Origin: Polyangia bacterium
Lineage (GTDB): Bacteria > Myxococcota_A > Polyangia > Polyangiales > Sandaracinaceae
Length of the DNA stretch: 62,516 nt
Assembly (NCBI GenBank): GCA_030426845.1
Contig: JAUHXR010000013.1
Span: 1 to 62,516, forward strand
Reading direction: 5' to 3'
Both the position numbers and the translations under genes were made by a program. The notes under the pieces were generated by a model. That model ran no database searches and was not told where the DNA came from. It was given only the letters and a program-made list of their open reading frames with translations. Within the stretch, counting starts at the first letter, position 1. The number at the start of each line of letters is the position of its first letter. Positions 3,967 through 11,403 of this stretch are shown here, piece by piece.

Positions 3967-4005
3967 GTCGACGGGTCAGTCGGCGGGTCAGTCGGCGGCT
4001 CAGTC
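3967..4005 (-). repeat. 12-bp tandem repeat carrying the fxsA stop codon
   Basis: On the minus strand the end of fxsA reads as repeats of gccgccgactga. TGA therefore occurs at 4002-4000, 3990-3988 and 3978-3976 in the same frame. The unit is 12 bp with about three copies, the last decayed to cccgtcgaccga. Confidence 0.8.
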
Positions 4006-4518
4006 GACGAGGCGGCCGCGGGGCTCGCCGCCGCGGCGCTCCTCGATGACCTCGCCCTCCGCGTCGATCACGTTCGGGTCGAAGTCGCCGCGGCCGTAGC
4101 GCTCGCGGAAGGTGCCCCCGCCGATGTCGACGCGGTAGCTCATCTTGGCCGCCCCGGACTTGACCTTCTTCTCGAGGTAGGCGCGCACGTGCTTGCCGAT
4201 GAACCGGCGCGACGGCGGGACGAGGAGGAGGACCCCGGTCACGTCCGTGAGCACGCCCGGCGTGAGCAGCAGCACCCCGCCGACGAGCACGAGGACGCCG
4301 CCGACGATCCCCTCCTCGGGGAGGCGGCCCTCCGCGAGCGACTCCGTCCAGGAGCGCCAGACCTTGAGGCCCTCACGCTTGGCGAGCGCCGCGCCGAGGA
4401 CGCCGGTGAGGAGGATGATCCCGACCGTGGCCCAGAAGCCGAGGTGCTGACCGAGGACGTAGAGGAGAAACGTCTCGGCCAGGGGGATCAGGGTGAAGAG
4501 CGCGAGCCACTTGGCCAC
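4000..4518 (-). CDS. fxsA: FxsA family membrane protein
   Basis: The 172-residue protein matches FxsA in length and layout. It opens with two hydrophobic segments (LALFTLIPLAETFLLYVLG and FWATVGIILLTGVLGAAL), then a basic stretch AKREGLKVW. A third and fourth hydrophobic block (GGVLVLVGGVLLLTPGVLTD and VTGVLLLVPP) follow, and the tail is polar. FxsA was named for suppressing F-exclusion of phage T7 in E. coli; its bacterial role is unclear. The GTG at 4518 is preceded by a TAGTTC box seven bases upstream, which would fit a leaderless start. It lies 27 bp beyond the RlaP-type operon and could also be read from it. Confidence 0.85.
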   Translation of the reverse strand: MAKWLALFTLIPLAETFLLYVLGQHLGFWATVGIILLTGVLGAALAKREGLKVWRSWTESLAEGRLPEEGIVGGVLVLVGGVLLLTPGVLTDVTGVLLLVPPSRRFIGKHVRAYLEKKVKSGAAKMSYRVDIGGGTFRERYGRGDFDPNVIDAEGEVIEERRGGEPRGRLVD

Positions 4519-4545: not shown

Positions 4546-5301
4546 TCATTGCATCCGCCTCGCGATCAACCAGTCGTCGATCGCCGCCCGGTTGGGGGGC
4601 TCCTCGGGGAGCGGGCTCACCCTGGCCGCGGCCTCGAGGCGGGCCTCCAGCGCGGGCCAGCGGGACCGGTGCTCCGCGTCGAGGGCCTCGGGGAGCGGGG
4701 TCTTCTCGCCCGCCTCTCGCTTGAGCGCGACCAGCTCGGCGATCCCGTCGACGCCGTGGATCGCGGCCGCCTCGGACACGTCGCCGACGACCTCCCCCGC
4801 CTCCAGCAGGTGCAGACCGGTGAGCGCGACCCGGTACGCGTAGAGCATGGTCTTGGCCCGCGGCGCCCTCGCGTGCTCGCGCTGCATCCCGCGGAAGTAC
4901 CCGCGGTAGTGGGCGGCGAAGCGCCGGCTCAGGCTCCCGCGAGCGAGCGCGCGGAGGGCGTCCAGGTCGTCCGAGCGGCTGAGCTGCATCGGCGTCACGA
5001 GCCGCTCGAGGACGTTGCCGTTGCCTCGCAGCAGCAGGCCGAGCGCCTTACCTAGCTCGTGGGTCGTCAGATCGTGCTCGAGCCCCTCGAAGACCGTCAA
5101 CGCATCGTGCGTATCGGGAGGCGGATCGAGCCCGAGGAGCGACGGGAGGGGCGCGAGGTGGATGCCCTTCAGATCGAGGTCGCTGTCGGGGCTTGGGAAC
5201 CCGTAGTAGTGCGCGCCGACCACGCCGACGTGGAGGAGCGCTCCCGGCGGCGGGTGCGCGGCGACGAAGCGGCGCGCGCGATCGAGGTCCACCGTCAGCA
5301 C
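4546..5301 (-). CDS. RlaP/COG3541-type Pol-beta superfamily nucleotidyltransferase (second copy)
   Basis: The 251-residue protein has a minimal nucleotidyltransferase motif near residues 27-47: VGAHYYGFPSPDSDLDLKG, with the D-x-D pair of DSDLDLKG as the likely metal ligands. The usual Gly-Ser of the family is Gly-Ala here. Later blocks RRFAAHYRGYFRGM and KTMLYAYRVALTGLHLLEAGEVV match the helical half of predicted nucleotidyltransferases of the RlaP/COG3541 kind, a family linked by others to RNA repair. The GTG start at 5301 overlaps the end of its paralog by seven bases, so translation is probably coupled. The substrate is unknown. Confidence 0.8.
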   Translation of the reverse strand: MLTVDLDRARRFVAAHPPPGALLHVGVVGAHYYGFPSPDSDLDLKGIHLAPLPSLLGLDPPPDTHDALTVFEGLEHDLTTHELGKALGLLLRGNGNVLERLVTPMQLSRSDDLDALRALARGSLSRRFAAHYRGYFRGMQREHARAPRAKTMLYAYRVALTGLHLLEAGEVVGDVSEAAAIHGVDGIAELVALKREAGEKTPLPEALDAEHRSRWPALEARLEAAARVSPLPEEPPNRAAIDDWLIARRMQ

Positions 5302-6209
5302 GCCAAGACCTCCTGCACGATCGCCACGCAGAGCGCGCTCATCGCCTCTTCGTCCGGTGCGTCGGGCAGCGCCGAGCGCCCCTTGGCCTCACGGACCCGG
5401 CGGTCGAGCTCCTCCGCCTCGGCGAGGAGCGCGTCGTAGCTCCAGCGACCGTCGCGCACCTCGAGGAGCGACTCGCGATCGGGGCGGCGCACCACGACCT
5501 CGCCCGTCTCGAGGATCTCGAGGGCCATCCGGCTCAGCCGGATGAGGTGCATCGCGTGCTTGGTGTCGTAGCCGTGCGCGGCCTCGAGGGCGGCGCGCGC
5601 CGCGTTACGGTGCCGCAGCCACTGCCGGTACTGGTCCCACTCCTTGGCGGCCGCGCGGAAGCGCTTCTCGCGGGCCAGGGTCTCCTGAAACGCCGCCGAC
5701 GCGACGAGCTCGCCGCGCGCCTCGAGCGCCTCGGCTGCGCCGAGCTGATCGCGGCTGAGCCCGCGCTCGGGCAGCCCGAAGTCGGCGCGAGACGGGGCCC
5801 CCGCGGGCGGCTCGAGGAGCCAGCGGCGGTGGCGCTTGATGCGTCCGAGCTGCGAGCGCGCGTAGCCGCTGAACGTCTCGGCTACCCGCTTGGAGAGGAG
5901 CCGCGGACGCGCGTCGAGGAGCCGCTGGCCGGCCGGCGCGACGAACCGGTGGTCGTCCTCGTGGGCGAAGAGGATCTCGATCGCGCTCGGGTTGTTGGCG
6001 GTCGCGAGCCGCATCAGCTTGCGCACCTCGAAGCGCACGTGGTCGGGCGACAGCTCGATCTGCTCGGGCGCGGGGAGGAACCCGAGGTACCAGGCGGGCG
6101 GGCCGACGACCACGCCCTTGAGGTCCTCGTCGGAGCCCTCGCGCGCGAGCCCGTAGGCGCGGCTGCCGTGCAGGGTCTCGAAGATCAGGGTCGGCTCGTC
6201 GCTCGGCAT
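5295..6209 (-). CDS. RlaP/COG3541-type Pol-beta superfamily nucleotidyltransferase (first copy)
   Basis: The 304-residue protein carries the nucleotidyltransferase signature at residues about 11-34: ETLHGSRAYGLAREGSDEDL then KG. The Gly-Ser and the two aspartates of SDEDL are intact. Conserved helical motifs follow: NPSAIEILFAHED, YARSQLGRIKRHRRWL, YDTKHAMHLIRLSRMALEIL and ETGEVVV. The Lys-His-Ala block is typical of the family. Its ATG at 6209 lies one base after the stop of the upstream gene (TGACATG), and its own stop overlaps the second copy. The three genes therefore read as one tightly coupled operon. The family is associated with RNA-end repair or modification; the actual reaction is not known. 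Confidence 0.82.
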   Translation of the reverse strand: MPSDEPTLIFETLHGSRAYGLAREGSDEDLKGVVVGPPAWYLGFLPAPEQIELSPDHVRFEVRKLMRLATANNPSAIEILFAHEDDHRFVAPAGQRLLDARPRLLSKRVAETFSGYARSQLGRIKRHRRWLLEPPAGAPSRADFGLPERGLSRDQLGAAEALEARGELVASAAFQETLAREKRFRAAAKEWDQYRQWLRHRNAARAALEAAHGYDTKHAMHLIRLSRMALEILETGEVVVRRPDRESLLEVRDGRWSYDALLAEAEELDRRVREAKGRSALPDAPDEEAMSALCVAIVQEVLAC

Positions 6210-6210
6210 G

Positions 6211-6894
6211 TCAGCCGATCTCCCGCGCGGCGACGAAGAACACGAGGTGGGTGGTCAGGTCGAGGTCGGGCGCGACCTCACGCGTCGCGAGGTTGACCGG
6301 CACGCGCCCCTCGCGGCCGAACAGCGCGGCCCGCACCGCGTCGCCGGCGGTGAGCTGACCGTCCGGGCCGAGCCGGTGGTGGACGTTCTCGATCAGCTCG
6401 ACGAACGCCCGGCCGGCCGCGCCGAAGCGCAGGACCGGCTCGGCGTGGAGGAGCCCGCCGTGGGCCGCGAGCGCGACGAGCCGCCGACGCGCGTCGCGAG
6501 GGTCCTCGCCGCGCGCCGCCTCCGCGCCGAGGCCCGCGATCGCGATCGTGGCGTCGGGGTCCGCGGCCACCGCCCGCGCGACGAGGGGATCGTCCGGGCG
6601 AAGCCGCTCCGGCCCGCCGAGGACGAGCAGAGGCGCGGTCAGCTCACCGGAGGCGCGCGCGAGGGTCACCTCCTCTTGGGCCCACCACTCGGCCATCGCC
6701 CCGCACGGGCCCGCCTCCGCCGGATCGATCGGCCCCGGTGGCCCGTCGGCCCACACCTCGAGCGCGCCCAGCTGACGGCGGAGGTGGAGCGCGATCGCGA
6801 CCGGCGCGCCGGCCAGCAGCTCGCCCGGGCTCGCGCCGAGGACGTGGACCGACGCGCCGTCCTCGAACGGCAGCCGACCCCCCAGGATGCCCAT
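6211..6894 (-). CDS. unknown protein, first gene of the RlaP-type operon
   Basis: This 227-residue soluble-looking protein matches nothing I recognise. It has no signal peptide or membrane segment and is rich in Ala, Gly, Asp and Glu. Notable stretches are AMAEWWAQEEV (residues about 66-76), DPDATIAIAGLGAEAARGED (about 110-130) and VELIENVHHRLGPDGQLTAG (about 160-180). The ATG at 6894 is chosen for the GAAGG spaced about eight bases before it; a GTG at 6906 in the same frame is an alternative. A one-base gap to the first nucleotidyltransferase makes a functional link likely. Confidence 0.7.
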   Translation of the reverse strand: MGILGGRLPFEDGASVHVLGASPGELLAGAPVAIALHLRRQLGALEVWADGPPGPIDPAEAGPCGAMAEWWAQEEVTLARASGELTAPLLVLGGPERLRPDDPLVARAVAADPDATIAIAGLGAEAARGEDPRDARRRLVALAAHGGLLHAEPVLRFGAAGRAFVELIENVHHRLGPDGQLTAGDAVRAALFGREGRVPVNLATREVAPDLDLTTHLVFFVAAREIG

Positions 6895-6916
6895 CTCGCT
6901 CGCCACCTTCGCGCCT

Positions 6917-6924
6917 GTTATACC
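6917..6924. promoter_or_regulatory. shared, near-palindromic -10 element of a divergent promoter
   Basis: On the minus strand TATAAC (6922-6917) is a good -10 box for the RlaP-type operon. On the plus strand the overlapping TGTTATACC gives an extended -10 (TG at 6916-6917, TATACC 6919-6924) whose start point would fall on or next to the prlC ATG at 6931. Both directions therefore use the same eight bases in a 36-bp gap. Confidence 0.55.
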
Positions 6925-6930
6925 CGCCGG

Positions 6931-8961
6931 ATGAGCGCCCCCGCCGACAACCCGCTGATCGACCTCGGCTTCGAGATCCCCTTCGACACGATCGACGCGA
7001 GCCACGTGGAGCCCGCGGTCGATCATCTCATCGCCGAGGTGAAGGCCGCCATCGCGCGGATCGGGGCGCTCGAGGATCCGCCGACCTACGCCAACACGCT
7101 CGAGGCGCTCGAGCAGGCGGCCGAGCCGCTCGAGCGCGCGGTCGGCGTCGTCGGGCACCTCGAGAGCGTCCGCACGACCGAGGCGCTGCGCGCGGCCTAC
7201 AACGTCGTGCGGCCGCGGGTGAGCGAGCTCTACTCGTCCATCCCCCTCGACCCGCGGCTCTACCGCCGGCTCGTCGCGTTCTCGGAGACGAGCGAGGCGG
7301 CCGCGCTCGACCCGACGCGCCGCCGCTTCCTCGACAAGGAGCTGCGCAGCTTCCGGCGCAACGGCGCCGACCTCGACGACGCGGGCAAGGCGCGCCTCAC
7401 CGAGCTCGACGTGGAGCTCGCCAAGCTCACGACCAAGTTCGCGCAGAACCTCCTCGACGAGACGAACGCCTTCGAGCTGGTGGTGACCGACGAGGCGCGC
7501 CTCGAAGGCCTGCCGCCGAGCGCGGTGAAGGCGGCGCGAGCCGAGGCGGAGGCCAAGGGCCTCGAGGGCTGGCGCTTCACGCTGCAGGCGCCGAGCGTCA
7601 CCGCGGTGCTGACCTACCTGGAGGACGCCGCGATCCGCGAACAGGTGTGGCAGGCCTACAACACCCGGGCGAGCGCCGGCGAGCGCGACAACCGGCCGCT
7701 CATCGCGCAGATCCTCGAGCTGCGCCAGGCCAAGGCCGAGCTGCTCGGCTACGCGACCTTCGCCGACTTCGTCCTCGAGGAGCGCATGGCCAAGACGGGC
7801 GCGGAGGCCCAGGCGTTCGTCCAGGACCTCGCCGGTCGGACCGCGACCTTCTTCGCGAAGGAGCAAGAGGAGCTGCGGGCCTTCGCGGAGCGGGACGCGC
7901 TGGCGCCGTGGGACGTCGGCATCTTCGCGGAGAAGCTGCGCAAGGCGCGCTTCGACTTCGACGACGAGGAGCTGCGCCCGTACTTCCCGGTGCGCCAGGT
8001 GCTGACGGGCCTCTTCTCGGTGGTCGAGCGCCTCTACGGCGTGCGCGTCGAGCCGCTCGAGGGCGTGCCCGTCTGGCACGAGGACGTGCAGACCTACCGC
8101 ATCCTCGACGGCGCGCGGCACCTCGGGACGTTCTACGTCGACCTCTACCCGCGCGAGGACAAGCGGGGCGGCGCGTGGATGAACAGCTTCATCACGGGCG
8201 GCCCGCGCGCGAGCGGCGACTTCGCCCCGCACCTCGGGCTCTTCTGCGCGAACGTGACCAAGCCGGTGGGCGACGAGCCCGCGCTGCTCACCCACCGCGA
8301 GGTCGAGACGATCTTCCACGAGTTCGGCCACCTCATGCACCACTGCCTCAGCGAGGTGTCCGTGCGGAGCCTCGCGGGCACCGCGGTGGCGTGGGACTTC
8401 GTCGAGCTGCCGTCGCAGATCATGGAGAACTGGTGCTGGGAGCGGGAGGCGCTCGATCTCTTCGCGCGCCACCACGAGACCGGGGCCACGATCCCGGACG
8501 CGCTCCTCGAGAAGATGCAGCGCGCCCGCACCTTCCGGGCGGCGAGCGCGACGATGCGCCAGCTCGGCTTCGCGACCGCGGACCTCGCGCTCCACGTCGA
8601 CTACGACCCGGCGCGCGACGGCGACCCGGTGAGCTACGCGCGCGACAAGATGGCGCCGTTCTCGCCGACCGCGCTGCCGGAGGACTACGCGATGATCTGC
8701 GGCTTCACCCACCTCTTCGCCGGGCCGGTGGCCTACGCGTCGGGCTACTACAGCTACAAGTGGGCCGAGGTGCTCGACGCGGACGCGTTCACCCGCTTCA
8801 AGCGCGAGGGCGTGTTCAACGCGGAGGTCGGGCGCGAGTTCCGCGCGCGGATCCTCGCCCGCGGCGACAGCGCCGACCCGAGCGCGCTGTTCCACGACTT
8901 CATGGGGCGCGAGCCGAGCGTGGACGCGCTCCTCGAGCGCTCCGGCCTAACAGCCCGTTGA
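6931..8961 (+). CDS. prlC: oligopeptidase A (M3 family metallopeptidase)
   Basis: The 676-residue protein has the length and layout of oligopeptidase A. It is cytoplasmic, has no signal peptide, and has the M3 zinc site HEFGH at residues 463-467. The third ligand Glu lies in VELPSQIMENW (E492), and the substrate-binding tail motif GPVAYASGYYSYKW follows. It hydrolyses short peptides, including signal-peptide remnants. The ATG at 6931 lies right after an extended -10 (see 6917-6924), so the message may be leaderless. The last codons (Thr-Ala-Arg and TGA) lie inside the left end of a repeat element at 8949-9112, so an insertion appears to have replaced the native C-terminus. Confidence 0.95.
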   Translation: MSAPADNPLIDLGFEIPFDTIDASHVEPAVDHLIAEVKAAIARIGALEDPPTYANTLEALEQAAEPLERAVGVVGHLESVRTTEALRAAYNVVRPRVSELYSSIPLDPRLYRRLVAFSETSEAAALDPTRRRFLDKELRSFRRNGADLDDAGKARLTELDVELAKLTTKFAQNLLDETNAFELVVTDEARLEGLPPSAVKAARAEAEAKGLEGWRFTLQAPSVTAVLTYLEDAAIREQVWQAYNTRASAGERDNRPLIAQILELRQAKAELLGYATFADFVLEERMAKTGAEAQAFVQDLAGRTATFFAKEQEELRAFAERDALAPWDVGIFAEKLRKARFDFDDEELRPYFPVRQVLTGLFSVVERLYGVRVEPLEGVPVWHEDVQTYRILDGARHLGTFYVDLYPREDKRGGAWMNSFITGGPRASGDFAPHLGLFCANVTKPVGDEPALLTHREVETIFHEFGHLMHHCLSEVSVRSLAGTAVAWDFVELPSQIMENWCWEREALDLFARHHETGATIPDALLEKMQRARTFRAASATMRQLGFATADLALHVDYDPARDGDPVSYARDKMAPFSPTALPEDYAMICGFTHLFAGPVAYASGYYSYKWAEVLDADAFTRFKREGVFNAEVGREFRARILARGDSADPSALFHDFMGREPSVDALLERSGLTAR

Positions 8962-9232: not shown

Positions 9233-11161
9233 TCAGTCGTAGAGGCCGTTGTGCGCGGCGGCGAAGTGGAGGGTGTTCCACTCCGCCGTGGAGGCCTCGA
9301 TCAGGGCCGCGTCGGAGAACTCCGAGTAGTACTCCGAGCGCCCGGGCGAGCTGTTCACCATGCGAAGGTAGGTGTCCGAGATGTCACGACGCTCGGCGCG
9401 ATCCGACAGCGAGTCCGGGGTGTCCCAGTCCCAGAGCGTGCGCAGGACGTCGAGGTTGACGGATTGCCCGTCGGTCGCGCCGCCGCACGTGCTCCCGATG
9501 TAGCCGCCGGACGCCGCCGGGCCTTCGAGGCCGTAGGGGCCCTCGAACCAGGTGAAGGTCCCGTAGGAAGACGACGTGTCGTTGAACACCCTCGCCGCGA
9601 CGTAGTGGGCGTAGCCCTCACGCATGCCGATCATGTTCCACTCGCGGCTGAGCATCGAGTAGCTGTCGCCGTCGTTGCAGCCCCCTGACGACAGGTCGTC
9701 GTCGTAGTTGGGCTCGAGGCGACCCTGACGGACGATGGCGCGGGCGTGGCCGAGCTCGTGAGCGACGACGAACTTGAGGCGCCGGTTCGAGCTGGTCAGT
9801 CGAACGTAGGCGTCCTGGTTGGCGTAGTTGCAGTTTGACGTGCAGTAGTGCGCGGAGCTGCCGTTGTCGGAGTTGTTGAAGTCGTCGCCGACGTGAATCT
9901 GAGAGCTCGACGCGTACCCCGCGTAGTAGCGGCTCACCATGCTCGCGACGGCCATCGCGGTGGCCCGGGTGGTCCAGGAGCCGGCCGAGACGTTCGAGGT
10001 CTGACCGCGCGGCGGCGAGTAGCCCGTGACGTCGAACCAGTAGGTCGTCGCGGGGTAGCTGCCGAAGGTGATGTCTCCGCCGTCGTGGTAGCGGATCAGG
10101 TTCGCGTTGGTGTCTCGGACGTAGTGGTAGACGCGCACGGTGAACGGGCCGTTGCGCGAGGTGCTCCAGGTGACGCAGCCGCTGGTCGGCGAGGTGTCGA
10201 GCGTCCGCGACCACGTGCCCTGCGAGATCCGGATGCGGACGCCGTAGGCGGTGACGAGCGAGGTGCTGCCGTTGGCCCACGAGAGGCGGTCTTCCCCGTT
10301 GCCCGAGTCGGTGGTGCGCGCCTGCCAGCGCACGCAGGTGCGGTACTCGCTCGCGGTGAGGGCGTGCGTCGCGGCGGCGACGTCGCCGAGCGCGTCGACG
10401 TCGTCCACGGTGGGGAGCGCCACGTCGTCCGGGTCGTCACCGACCCACTGGACCGTCCGGCCCGCGGCCGCGCCGTGGCCCAGGCCGGTCGCCTCCTCGC
10501 GCTGGGTCTCGGTCAGGAGCGTCCACTGGCCCGCGACCTCCGACCACGCGAGGAACAGCTCGGGGAGCACGGCGGTGCGGGCTCCACCGTCCTCCACCGC
10601 GACCTGGAGCAGGCCGGGCAGCGCGCGCTGCGCGGGACGCGGGATCGTGGAGGTCGGGACGCGGAAGGTCGCGGTCGAGCCGGCCGGGATCTCGAGTCGG
10701 GCCAGCGCGGTCATGGCGCCGCGCGTGGTGCCGCCGTCGGTGACCGCGGTGAGCCCGAGGCGAACGGGCTCATCCGAGCGGTTGGTCACGAGGAAGTCGA
10801 GCCGGTCGAGCGTGGGCGCGCGCTCCACCTCCTCCGCCCAATCGATCTGGAGGGTGGGGGGAGGCTCGACGAAGTCGAAGCCCACCCCGTCGGTGACCGG
10901 CTCCGGGGCCGGGAGCGCGGAGGTCACGCGCGTGGGGTAGAGCTCCGGGAGATCCGCGATCCGCTGAGAGTCGAGGACCTCACCAGGGACGCCGTCGTGG
11001 GTTGGATCGGGATACGGCTCGTCCTCCGGCTCCGGGTTCGGATCGACGGTGGAGAGAGACGGGTCGGCGGGCGGGATGTCGTCGTCGAGCGGACTCAGCG
11101 CACATCCAAGGAGGCCCAGCGCGCAGGCGAGGATGACGGAGGCTCGGGAGCTCGGAACCAT
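9233..11161 (-). CDS. large lipoprotein with HExxH metalloprotease motif
   Basis: The 642-residue protein starts with a lipoprotein signal (VILACALGLLGCAL) and an acidic, Pro-rich linker. The first half looks beta-rich, with LDFLVTNRSDEPVRLGLTAV typical of an Ig-like strand set. The C-terminal third contains FVVAHELGHARAI (HExxH near residue 462), and REGYAHYVAARVF about 58 residues later could supply a third zinc ligand Glu, as in gluzincins. Cys-containing loops (HYCTSNCNYAN, SSGGCNDGD, GSTCGGA) surround the site. It is likely a surface or secreted zinc protease, but no named family was recognised. The ATG at 11161 has GAGGTG seven bases upstream. Confidence 0.75.
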   Translation of the reverse strand: MVPSSRASVILACALGLLGCALSPLDDDIPPADPSLSTVDPNPEPEDEPYPDPTHDGVPGEVLDSQRIADLPELYPTRVTSALPAPEPVTDGVGFDFVEPPPTLQIDWAEEVERAPTLDRLDFLVTNRSDEPVRLGLTAVTDGGTTRGAMTALARLEIPAGSTATFRVPTSTIPRPAQRALPGLLQVAVEDGGARTAVLPELFLAWSEVAGQWTLLTETQREEATGLGHGAAAGRTVQWVGDDPDDVALPTVDDVDALGDVAAATHALTASEYRTCVRWQARTTDSGNGEDRLSWANGSTSLVTAYGVRIRISQGTWSRTLDTSPTSGCVTWSTSRNGPFTVRVYHYVRDTNANLIRYHDGGDITFGSYPATTYWFDVTGYSPPRGQTSNVSAGSWTTRATAMAVASMVSRYYAGYASSSQIHVGDDFNNSDNGSSAHYCTSNCNYANQDAYVRLTSSNRRLKFVVAHELGHARAIVRQGRLEPNYDDDLSSGGCNDGDSYSMLSREWNMIGMREGYAHYVAARVFNDTSSSYGTFTWFEGPYGLEGPAASGGYIGSTCGGATDGQSVNLDVLRTLWDWDTPDSLSDRAERRDISDTYLRMVNSSPGRSEYYSEFSDAALIEASTAEWNTLHFAAAHNGLYD

Positions 11162-11278
11162 AGTGAGGCACCTCGGGCGAGAGGGGACGGGATGCGGTAC
11201 GAGCCGGACGTCCGACGCAGACCGCTCGGCCGCTCCGAGACCCTGCCCCGCGCTGAGTCGGAGGTTGCAACACCTTGT

Positions 11279-11367
11279 GACAGCACCCTGGGACAGCACC
11301 CCGGGACAGCACCGCACCCTGGGACAGCACCGCACCCTGGGACAGCACCGCACCCTGGGACAGCACC
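11279..11367. repeat. 18-bp tandem repeat array in a divergent intergenic region
   Basis: GACAGCACC occurs six times; the last copies are spaced exactly 18 bp apart with unit GGGACAGCACCGCACCCT and the first two are closer. The array lies between the start of the HExxH lipoprotein gene (11161, minus) and the TetR gene (11452, plus). No gene in any frame there looks real. It could be a protein-binding array or a neutral satellite. Confidence 0.85.
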
Positions 11368-11403
11368 GAGAGCTGCTGCGCCAACCCACGATACCGACAC
11401 AAT

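Follow-up and report, generated by a model that had tools for sequence, protein, structure and literature searches.

The window, i.e., the whole 62,516-nucleotide stretch of DNA from a Polyangia bacterium that was analysed here, contains two overlapping genes for nucleotidyltransferases of the RlaP family, one from each of two classes (A and B) that, judging from their sequences, are anciently separated. The explanation that best accounts for our observations is that A and B are paralogous RlaP nucleotidyltransferases working together in RNA-end repair, most likely as one hetero-oligomer, a reading to which we assign a probability of about 0.6. The same A and B pair appears plugged into two different repair systems across bacteria, and the three-gene module originally proposed for the window is here corrected to a two-gene one.

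Gene Layout and Identification

The genes concerned and their immediate neighbours are the following.

4000-4518, minus strand: FxsA-family membrane protein gene (PF04186)
4546-5301, minus strand: RlaP class B nucleotidyltransferase (P0003, 251 residues, GTG start), from Pfam RlaP, its AlphaFold2 model and its acidic residues
5295-6209, minus strand: RlaP class A nucleotidyltransferase (P0002, 304 residues, ATG start), from Pfam RlaP, phrog_388, its AlphaFold2 model and its acidic residues
6211-6894, minus strand: DUF1152-like gene (P0001, 227 residues, ATG start), from a profile match to DUF1152
6931-8961, plus strand: M3 oligopeptidase gene, divergent neighbour of P0001, listed for context only (PF01432, E 2.6e-133, and TOP_N)

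These coordinates agree with the original prediction of three open reading frames, with one base (6210) separating those of P0001 and P0002 and a 7-base overlap (5295-5301) between those of P0002 and P0003. The assignment of both enzymes to the RlaP type was likewise sustained, since P0002 (E 1.4e-19, 71.2 bits) and P0003 (E 6.4e-34, 118.2 bits) both exceed the curated Pfam cut-off of 23 bits for RlaP (PF10127). P0002 also matches phrog_388 of the PHROGs collection (E 3.2e-56). No model of PADLOC matches the pair, P0001 alone yields zero matches in Pfam, NCBIfam, PHROGs and PADLOC, and no RlaP genes beyond P0002 and P0003 were detected in the genome of the window. Among PDB sequences, P0001 and P0002 as single-sequence queries gave chance-level matches only and the class A profile gave none, while the class B profile retrieved two weak TUTase matches.

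Two Classes of RlaP Proteins

The class A protein P0002 is a paralogue of the class B protein P0003 (profile-profile E 2e-27), and a tree built from 95 class A and 63 class B sequences resolves the classes into two clades with support 1.0 and no misplaced member. The C-terminal part of class A is longer and has extra helical structure, in which K217 and R224 are invariant and an HGYDTKHAMHL motif occurs, none of which is seen in class B. AlphaFold2 models of P0002 and P0003 (mean pLDDT 96.8 and 97.0, respectively) display a nucleotidyltransferase fold, and their matches by Foldseek and VIA-align are nucleotidyltransferases (HalB, aminoglycoside nucleotidyltransferases, GlnE and MNT). According to VIA-align, the best solved structures for both models are entries of Hailong HalB (Z 9.6 for A and 11.1 for B), which for class B are tied with several others, including aminoglycoside nucleotidyltransferases.

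The acidic D-x-D residues foreseen in both enzymes correspond to D27/D29 in P0002 and D41/D43 in P0003. A third acid, D56, was assigned in P0002 by profile alignment against the invariant D77 of class B, and D41, D43 and D77 of P0003 are conserved. Both proteins hence combine the Pol-beta-type nucleotidyltransferase fold, the G[S/A] position, the DxD and the third acid of RlaP proteins, and on their models both look catalytic in the window. The Gly-Ala that was pointed out in the second enzyme in place of Gly-Ser is real, but it is no anomaly, since GA is the commoner form within class B (GA in 33 and GS in 18 of 51 sequences).

When class A was first aligned, with 13 sequences, five of them had Ser or Thr at the position of D56. 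In three of these five (L042, L052 and L064) the paired B keeps all three acids, which suggests that class B would be the catalytic subunit where A has Ser or Thr at that position; class A of these three loci is a possible non-catalytic subunit.

Pairing and Fusion of Classes A and B across Bacteria

A class A scan of species genomes fetched 80 loci, nine of them re-fetches of genomes from the order-level search, distributed over Myxococcota, Riflebacteria, Planctomycetota, Chloroflexi, Abditibacteria, KSB1, Eremiobacterota, Armatimonadetes, Acidobacteria, Bacteroidota and other phyla. A class B gene adjoins the class A gene in 58 of these loci, in the order B-A in 39, A-B in 18 and on opposite strands in one; among the rest, 16 are without B, four are ended by a contig edge and two have B further off. 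Of the 24 genomes of the order that carry RlaP, 16 have A next to B, and in one more the two lie about 4 kb apart. Coupling is generally tight, with 47 of 68 measured pairs overlapping and 12 lying within 30 bases (59 of 68 together). Moreover, the distance matrices of A and B correlate with r = 0.82, the largest value in 2000 permutations being 0.22.

In four genomes A and B share one open frame of 617-685 residues, in both orders.

B-A fusions: L340 (same record as L101), L341 and L342
A-B fusion: L343

The occurrence of fusions in both orders is strong evidence that A and B work together, and the four fusions along with the strong pairing favour their physical association. The original notion that two divergent enzymes of RlaP type make up a coupled unit therefore finds support in both their pairing across phyla and their natural fusions, a basis much stronger than the gene arrangement it was first drawn from.

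In contrast to bacterial A and B, which often form a pair or a fusion, the members found in phages are for the most part class A genes standing alone. P0002 matches 306 phage records, with single class A genes in both regions examined, and P0003 gave no match against phage records. The A profile also brought up 80 viral class A loci, every one of them single. Such genes, amounting to a fifth of the fetched loci and to all 80 viral ones, indicate that A can work alone. Fifteen IMG/VR loci carry both classes, mostly from one prophage type. The prophage group with a B-A pair (L269-L271, L276-L278, L280-L282, L284, L285, L287, L298 and L336) comes from isolate genomes; its pair lies where the viral contig ends or close to that point, adjoining lysis and glycosyltransferase (gtr-like) genes.

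RNA-Repair Genes around the Pair in Relatives

Neighbourhoods of the pair point to two RNA-repair systems. On Deinococcus plasmids, D. gobiensis carries a Hen1-A-B-Pnkp operon, D. ficus shows the same arrangement with one gene more (Hen1-A-B-orf-Pnkp), and D. taeanensis presents Hen1-A-B with a Thg1-family gene nearby. The 237-residue protein encoded between RlaP-B and Pnkp in D. ficus (L180, 6735-7448) was not found in the other loci.

Regarding the Rtc system, rtcR lies directly upstream of A-B in three genomes (G017, G039 and G042) from two related genera of one Myxococcota family, with a perfect sigma-54 site, TGGCAC-N5-TTGC, between rtcR and A, 29-47 bases before A; for each of these sites, none of 200 shuffles was as good. 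In G039 and G042, rtcB and rtcA are placed divergently from rtcR, next to rtcR-A-B. Elsewhere, B-A is adjoined by RtcA, RtcB and RtcR at one locus (L123), and RtcB stands beside B-A in six loci of Bacteroidota (L128, L129, L132, L136, L139 and L140). One Myxococcota contig (L085) contains rtcR, a piece of a Hen1-like gene and RlaP A, together with part of a class B gene close to the edge of the contig, and may join both repair systems. Considering all pairs, the recurrent neighbours are RtcB, RtcR and WYL regulators, others being one-off or unrelated, and no effector, channel or HEPN toxin gene was found recurring beside the pair.

Co-occurrence was evaluated in 56 genomes of the order, 24 with RlaP and 32 without, RtcR being counted above its cut-off. 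With shared descent and genome size ignored, RtcR occurs in 21 genomes with RlaP and in none without it (three having RlaP only and 32 neither), Pnkp in 10 with RlaP and in none without, and RtcB in 24/24 RlaP genomes versus 10/32 of the others. Across 377 genomes of the phylum, ignoring again shared descent and genome size, 74 have both RlaP and RtcR, 41 RlaP only, 20 RtcR only and 242 neither. A genomic link to RNA ligase systems is thus present in relatives by adjacency as well as by co-occurrence, and the connection with RNA-end repair that had been anticipated for the pair is upheld by both the Hen1-Pnkp and Rtc neighbourhoods and the co-occurrence counts.

RNA-Repair Genes in the Genome of the Window

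The genome of the window has its own Rtc genes, including an rtcBA operon.

Contig C107, 2557-3780: rtcB, in an operon with rtcA
Contig C107, 3785-4831: rtcA, in an operon with rtcB

On C107 a sigma-54-like promoter, TGGCACGCTCGATGC, agreeing at 9 of 10 positions, is located 28 bases upstream of rtcB. Chance alone would yield about 0.3 matches of this quality in that 9 kb, so the site is of note for where it lies more than for how well it scores. The rtcR gene is found on another contig (C94), beside a methyltransferase gene.

No sigma-54 site was detected upstream of the RlaP pair of the window, the best candidate agreeing at 6 of 10 positions, and none with one mismatch occurs anywhere in the window. 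The upstream promoter of an RtcR regulon, present in G017, G039 and G042, is accordingly missing here. Neither does any RNA-repair gene adjoin the pair in the window, where Hen1 and Pnkp are not found as neighbours; the RlaP pair, rtcBA and rtcR are on separate contigs, and the genome gave no PNKP_ligase match. A ligase system is therefore present in the genome, and the RlaP pair is outside its visible regulon here.

Proposed Role of the Pair and Alternatives

Replacement of lost nucleotides ahead of ligation has been predicted for RlaP (PMC7824862), and RtcR senses broken tRNAs (tRNA halves) with cyclic-phosphate ends (PMC7790460). On this basis we envisage that a nuclease would cut a tRNA and that a nucleotide would be lost from the broken end; A and B would add the missing nucleotide, or nucleotides, to the broken RNA end before ligation, and a ligase would then seal it, presumably RtcB with RtcA in the genome of the window and Pnkp/Hen1 in Deinococcus. 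Within this scheme we infer the RNA substrate, the direction and number of nucleotides added and the formation of the A-B complex. Neither a solved structure nor a tested activity was found for any RlaP protein. More tentatively, with odds that we consider clearly below even, A and B might form a heteromeric RNA-end polymerase serving as an interchangeable module of unrelated repair systems (Rtc and Hen1-Pnkp), in which, in some lineages, an A protein without the third acid would support an active B as a subunit with a structural or RNA-binding function.

HalB of Hailong and MntA of type VII toxin-antitoxin systems exemplify nucleotidyltransferases that make signals or modify proteins, and the pair might likewise be a signalling or defence module producing an oligonucleotide or nucleotide signal, or modifying a protein, instead of repairing RNA. 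That the closest solved structures of both models by VIA-align are those of HalB, that toxin-antitoxin systems include pairs with this fold and that one group of prophages carries a terminal B-A pair are all in line with such a role. Nonetheless, the HalB match concerns the fold only and does not imply function, being tied for B with aminoglycoside nucleotidyltransferases, PADLOC models remain silent on the pair, and the relevant genes that do recur next to it are RtcB, RtcR, Hen1 and Pnkp, rather than an effector, channel or HEPN toxin gene, so that we regard this possibility as rather improbable. A different relationship between the two proteins is also conceivable, in which A and B would be independent enzymes of the same repair pathway, merely co-expressed and acting on different substrates, for example one on the 5' half and the other on the 3' half of a cut tRNA. 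The catalytic acids are kept in both window proteins, A has a helical C-terminal part with K217, R224 and the HGYDTKHAMHL motif that B is without, and A stands alone in phages, all of which would suit independent action; the four natural fusions in both orders and the strong pairing favour physical association instead, and we consider independence unlikely. Joint action of A and B in RNA-end repair is consequently the reading that we retain.

Comparison with Known Systems

RlaP and its RNA-repair role were already predicted by others. The window proteins share with the RlaP family (RNA ligase-associated Pol-beta, PF10127, COG3541) the fold, the acids and the link to RNA ligase systems (PMC7824862); what differs here is that the two classes, deeply separated from each other, regularly come paired or fused. 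RlaP is also of the same fold class as the CCA-adding enzyme and other Pol-beta RNA nucleotidyltransferases, even though it constitutes a separate sequence family, and it is proposed to be an analogue of CCA-adding enzymes that would carry out template-independent addition at RNA ends (PMC7824862 and general knowledge). In the literature covered, which did not extend to the founding RlaP paper (Burroughs and Aravind 2016), no description was found of the pairing of A and B, their fusions in both orders or their sharing by two repair systems.

The pair resembles a component of the Rtc system (RtcB ligase, RtcA cyclase and RtcR activator) in its location downstream of rtcR and a sigma-54 promoter in one Myxococcota family, and rtcBA and rtcR are present in the genome of the window, but there the pair is on a contig apart from them and without a sigma-54 site. 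Similarly, A-B lies between Hen1 and Pnkp genes on Deinococcus plasmids, while the Pnkp ligase domain is absent from the genome of the window. Concerning Hailong, HalB is the best structural match of both RlaP models, but no sequence relation of it to the A or B profiles was found, and no HalA-like partner was noticed among the neighbours of the pair. As for type VII MNT/HEPN systems, P0002 scores 12.9 bits versus the NCBIfam MntA cut-off of 60, and the window pair is flanked by FxsA and DUF1152-like/M3 peptidase genes, with no HEPN gene.

To our knowledge, restoration of nucleotides on cut tRNAs has been predicted for RlaP for years, and we know of no tested activity. The conservation of A and B as a pair, even fused, suggests that assays of a single protein might fail, and that both should be expressed together or a natural fusion used.

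The 227-Residue Protein and Other Neighbours of the Pair

The 227-residue protein P0001 had been described as having no recognised family and as the first partner of a three-part unit. The former statement holds for single-sequence searches, but profile comparison links P0001 to DUF1152. Compared as a profile, its family can be aligned to relatives of DUF1152 (PF06626) along 199 columns (probability 95.5%, pairwise E 1.6e-8), and L070, a homologue further removed, is itself a member of DUF1152 (E 1.3e-21). The relation is a distant one, visible at profile level only, P0001 not reaching the curated Pfam cut-off for DUF1152 and missing the DGGTD and MRGDE motifs that are invariant in DUF1152 relatives. 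By profile comparison, P0001 would thus be a reduced DUF1152 relative.

A scan of genome contigs with P0001 alone as query gave no match. The family nevertheless includes four other genomes with homologues of about 39-42% identity (G001, G003, G005 and G006), located either on a different contig from the RlaP pair or about 1 Mb off; all four repeat the layout of the window, in which this gene and that of an M3 oligopeptidase stand head-to-head. In three further relatives (G002, G007 and G008), RlaP A and B are present and a homologue of P0001 is missing. The three genes are hence apart in most relatives, an outcome that the original prediction had itself named as refuting it, and the count of how often they co-occur, suggested in the original prediction, shows A and B recurring together and the 227-residue gene not. 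The conserved arrangement of P0001 is with the M3 peptidase gene, not with the RlaP pair, and P0001 was rejected on synteny as a partner of the pair.

A module of three genes for RNA modification or stress, with the 227-residue protein among its products, could call on the same strand, the one-base gap and possibly one transcript in this genome, and P0001 is possibly co-transcribed with the RlaP pair in this species. As a conserved unit, such a module is already refuted by homologues of the 227-residue protein that are never near RlaP genes and always next to an M3 peptidase gene, and by RlaP genes without the 227-residue gene in three relatives; as an explanation of this locus, it is hardly credible.

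The DUF1152-like/M3 head-to-head arrangement is kept in five genomes of the family, and in the window just 36 bases (6895-6930) separate the two divergent starts. Downstream of the pair, at 27 bases from the class B gene, the FxsA gene begins in the same orientation; it was rejected as a partner, no homologue adjoining any other RlaP pair. Elsewhere in the window, short tandem repeats are observed at 11230-11400, around the start of the open reading frame 9233-11389, which read CPRVRC or VPGCGA depending on the frame.
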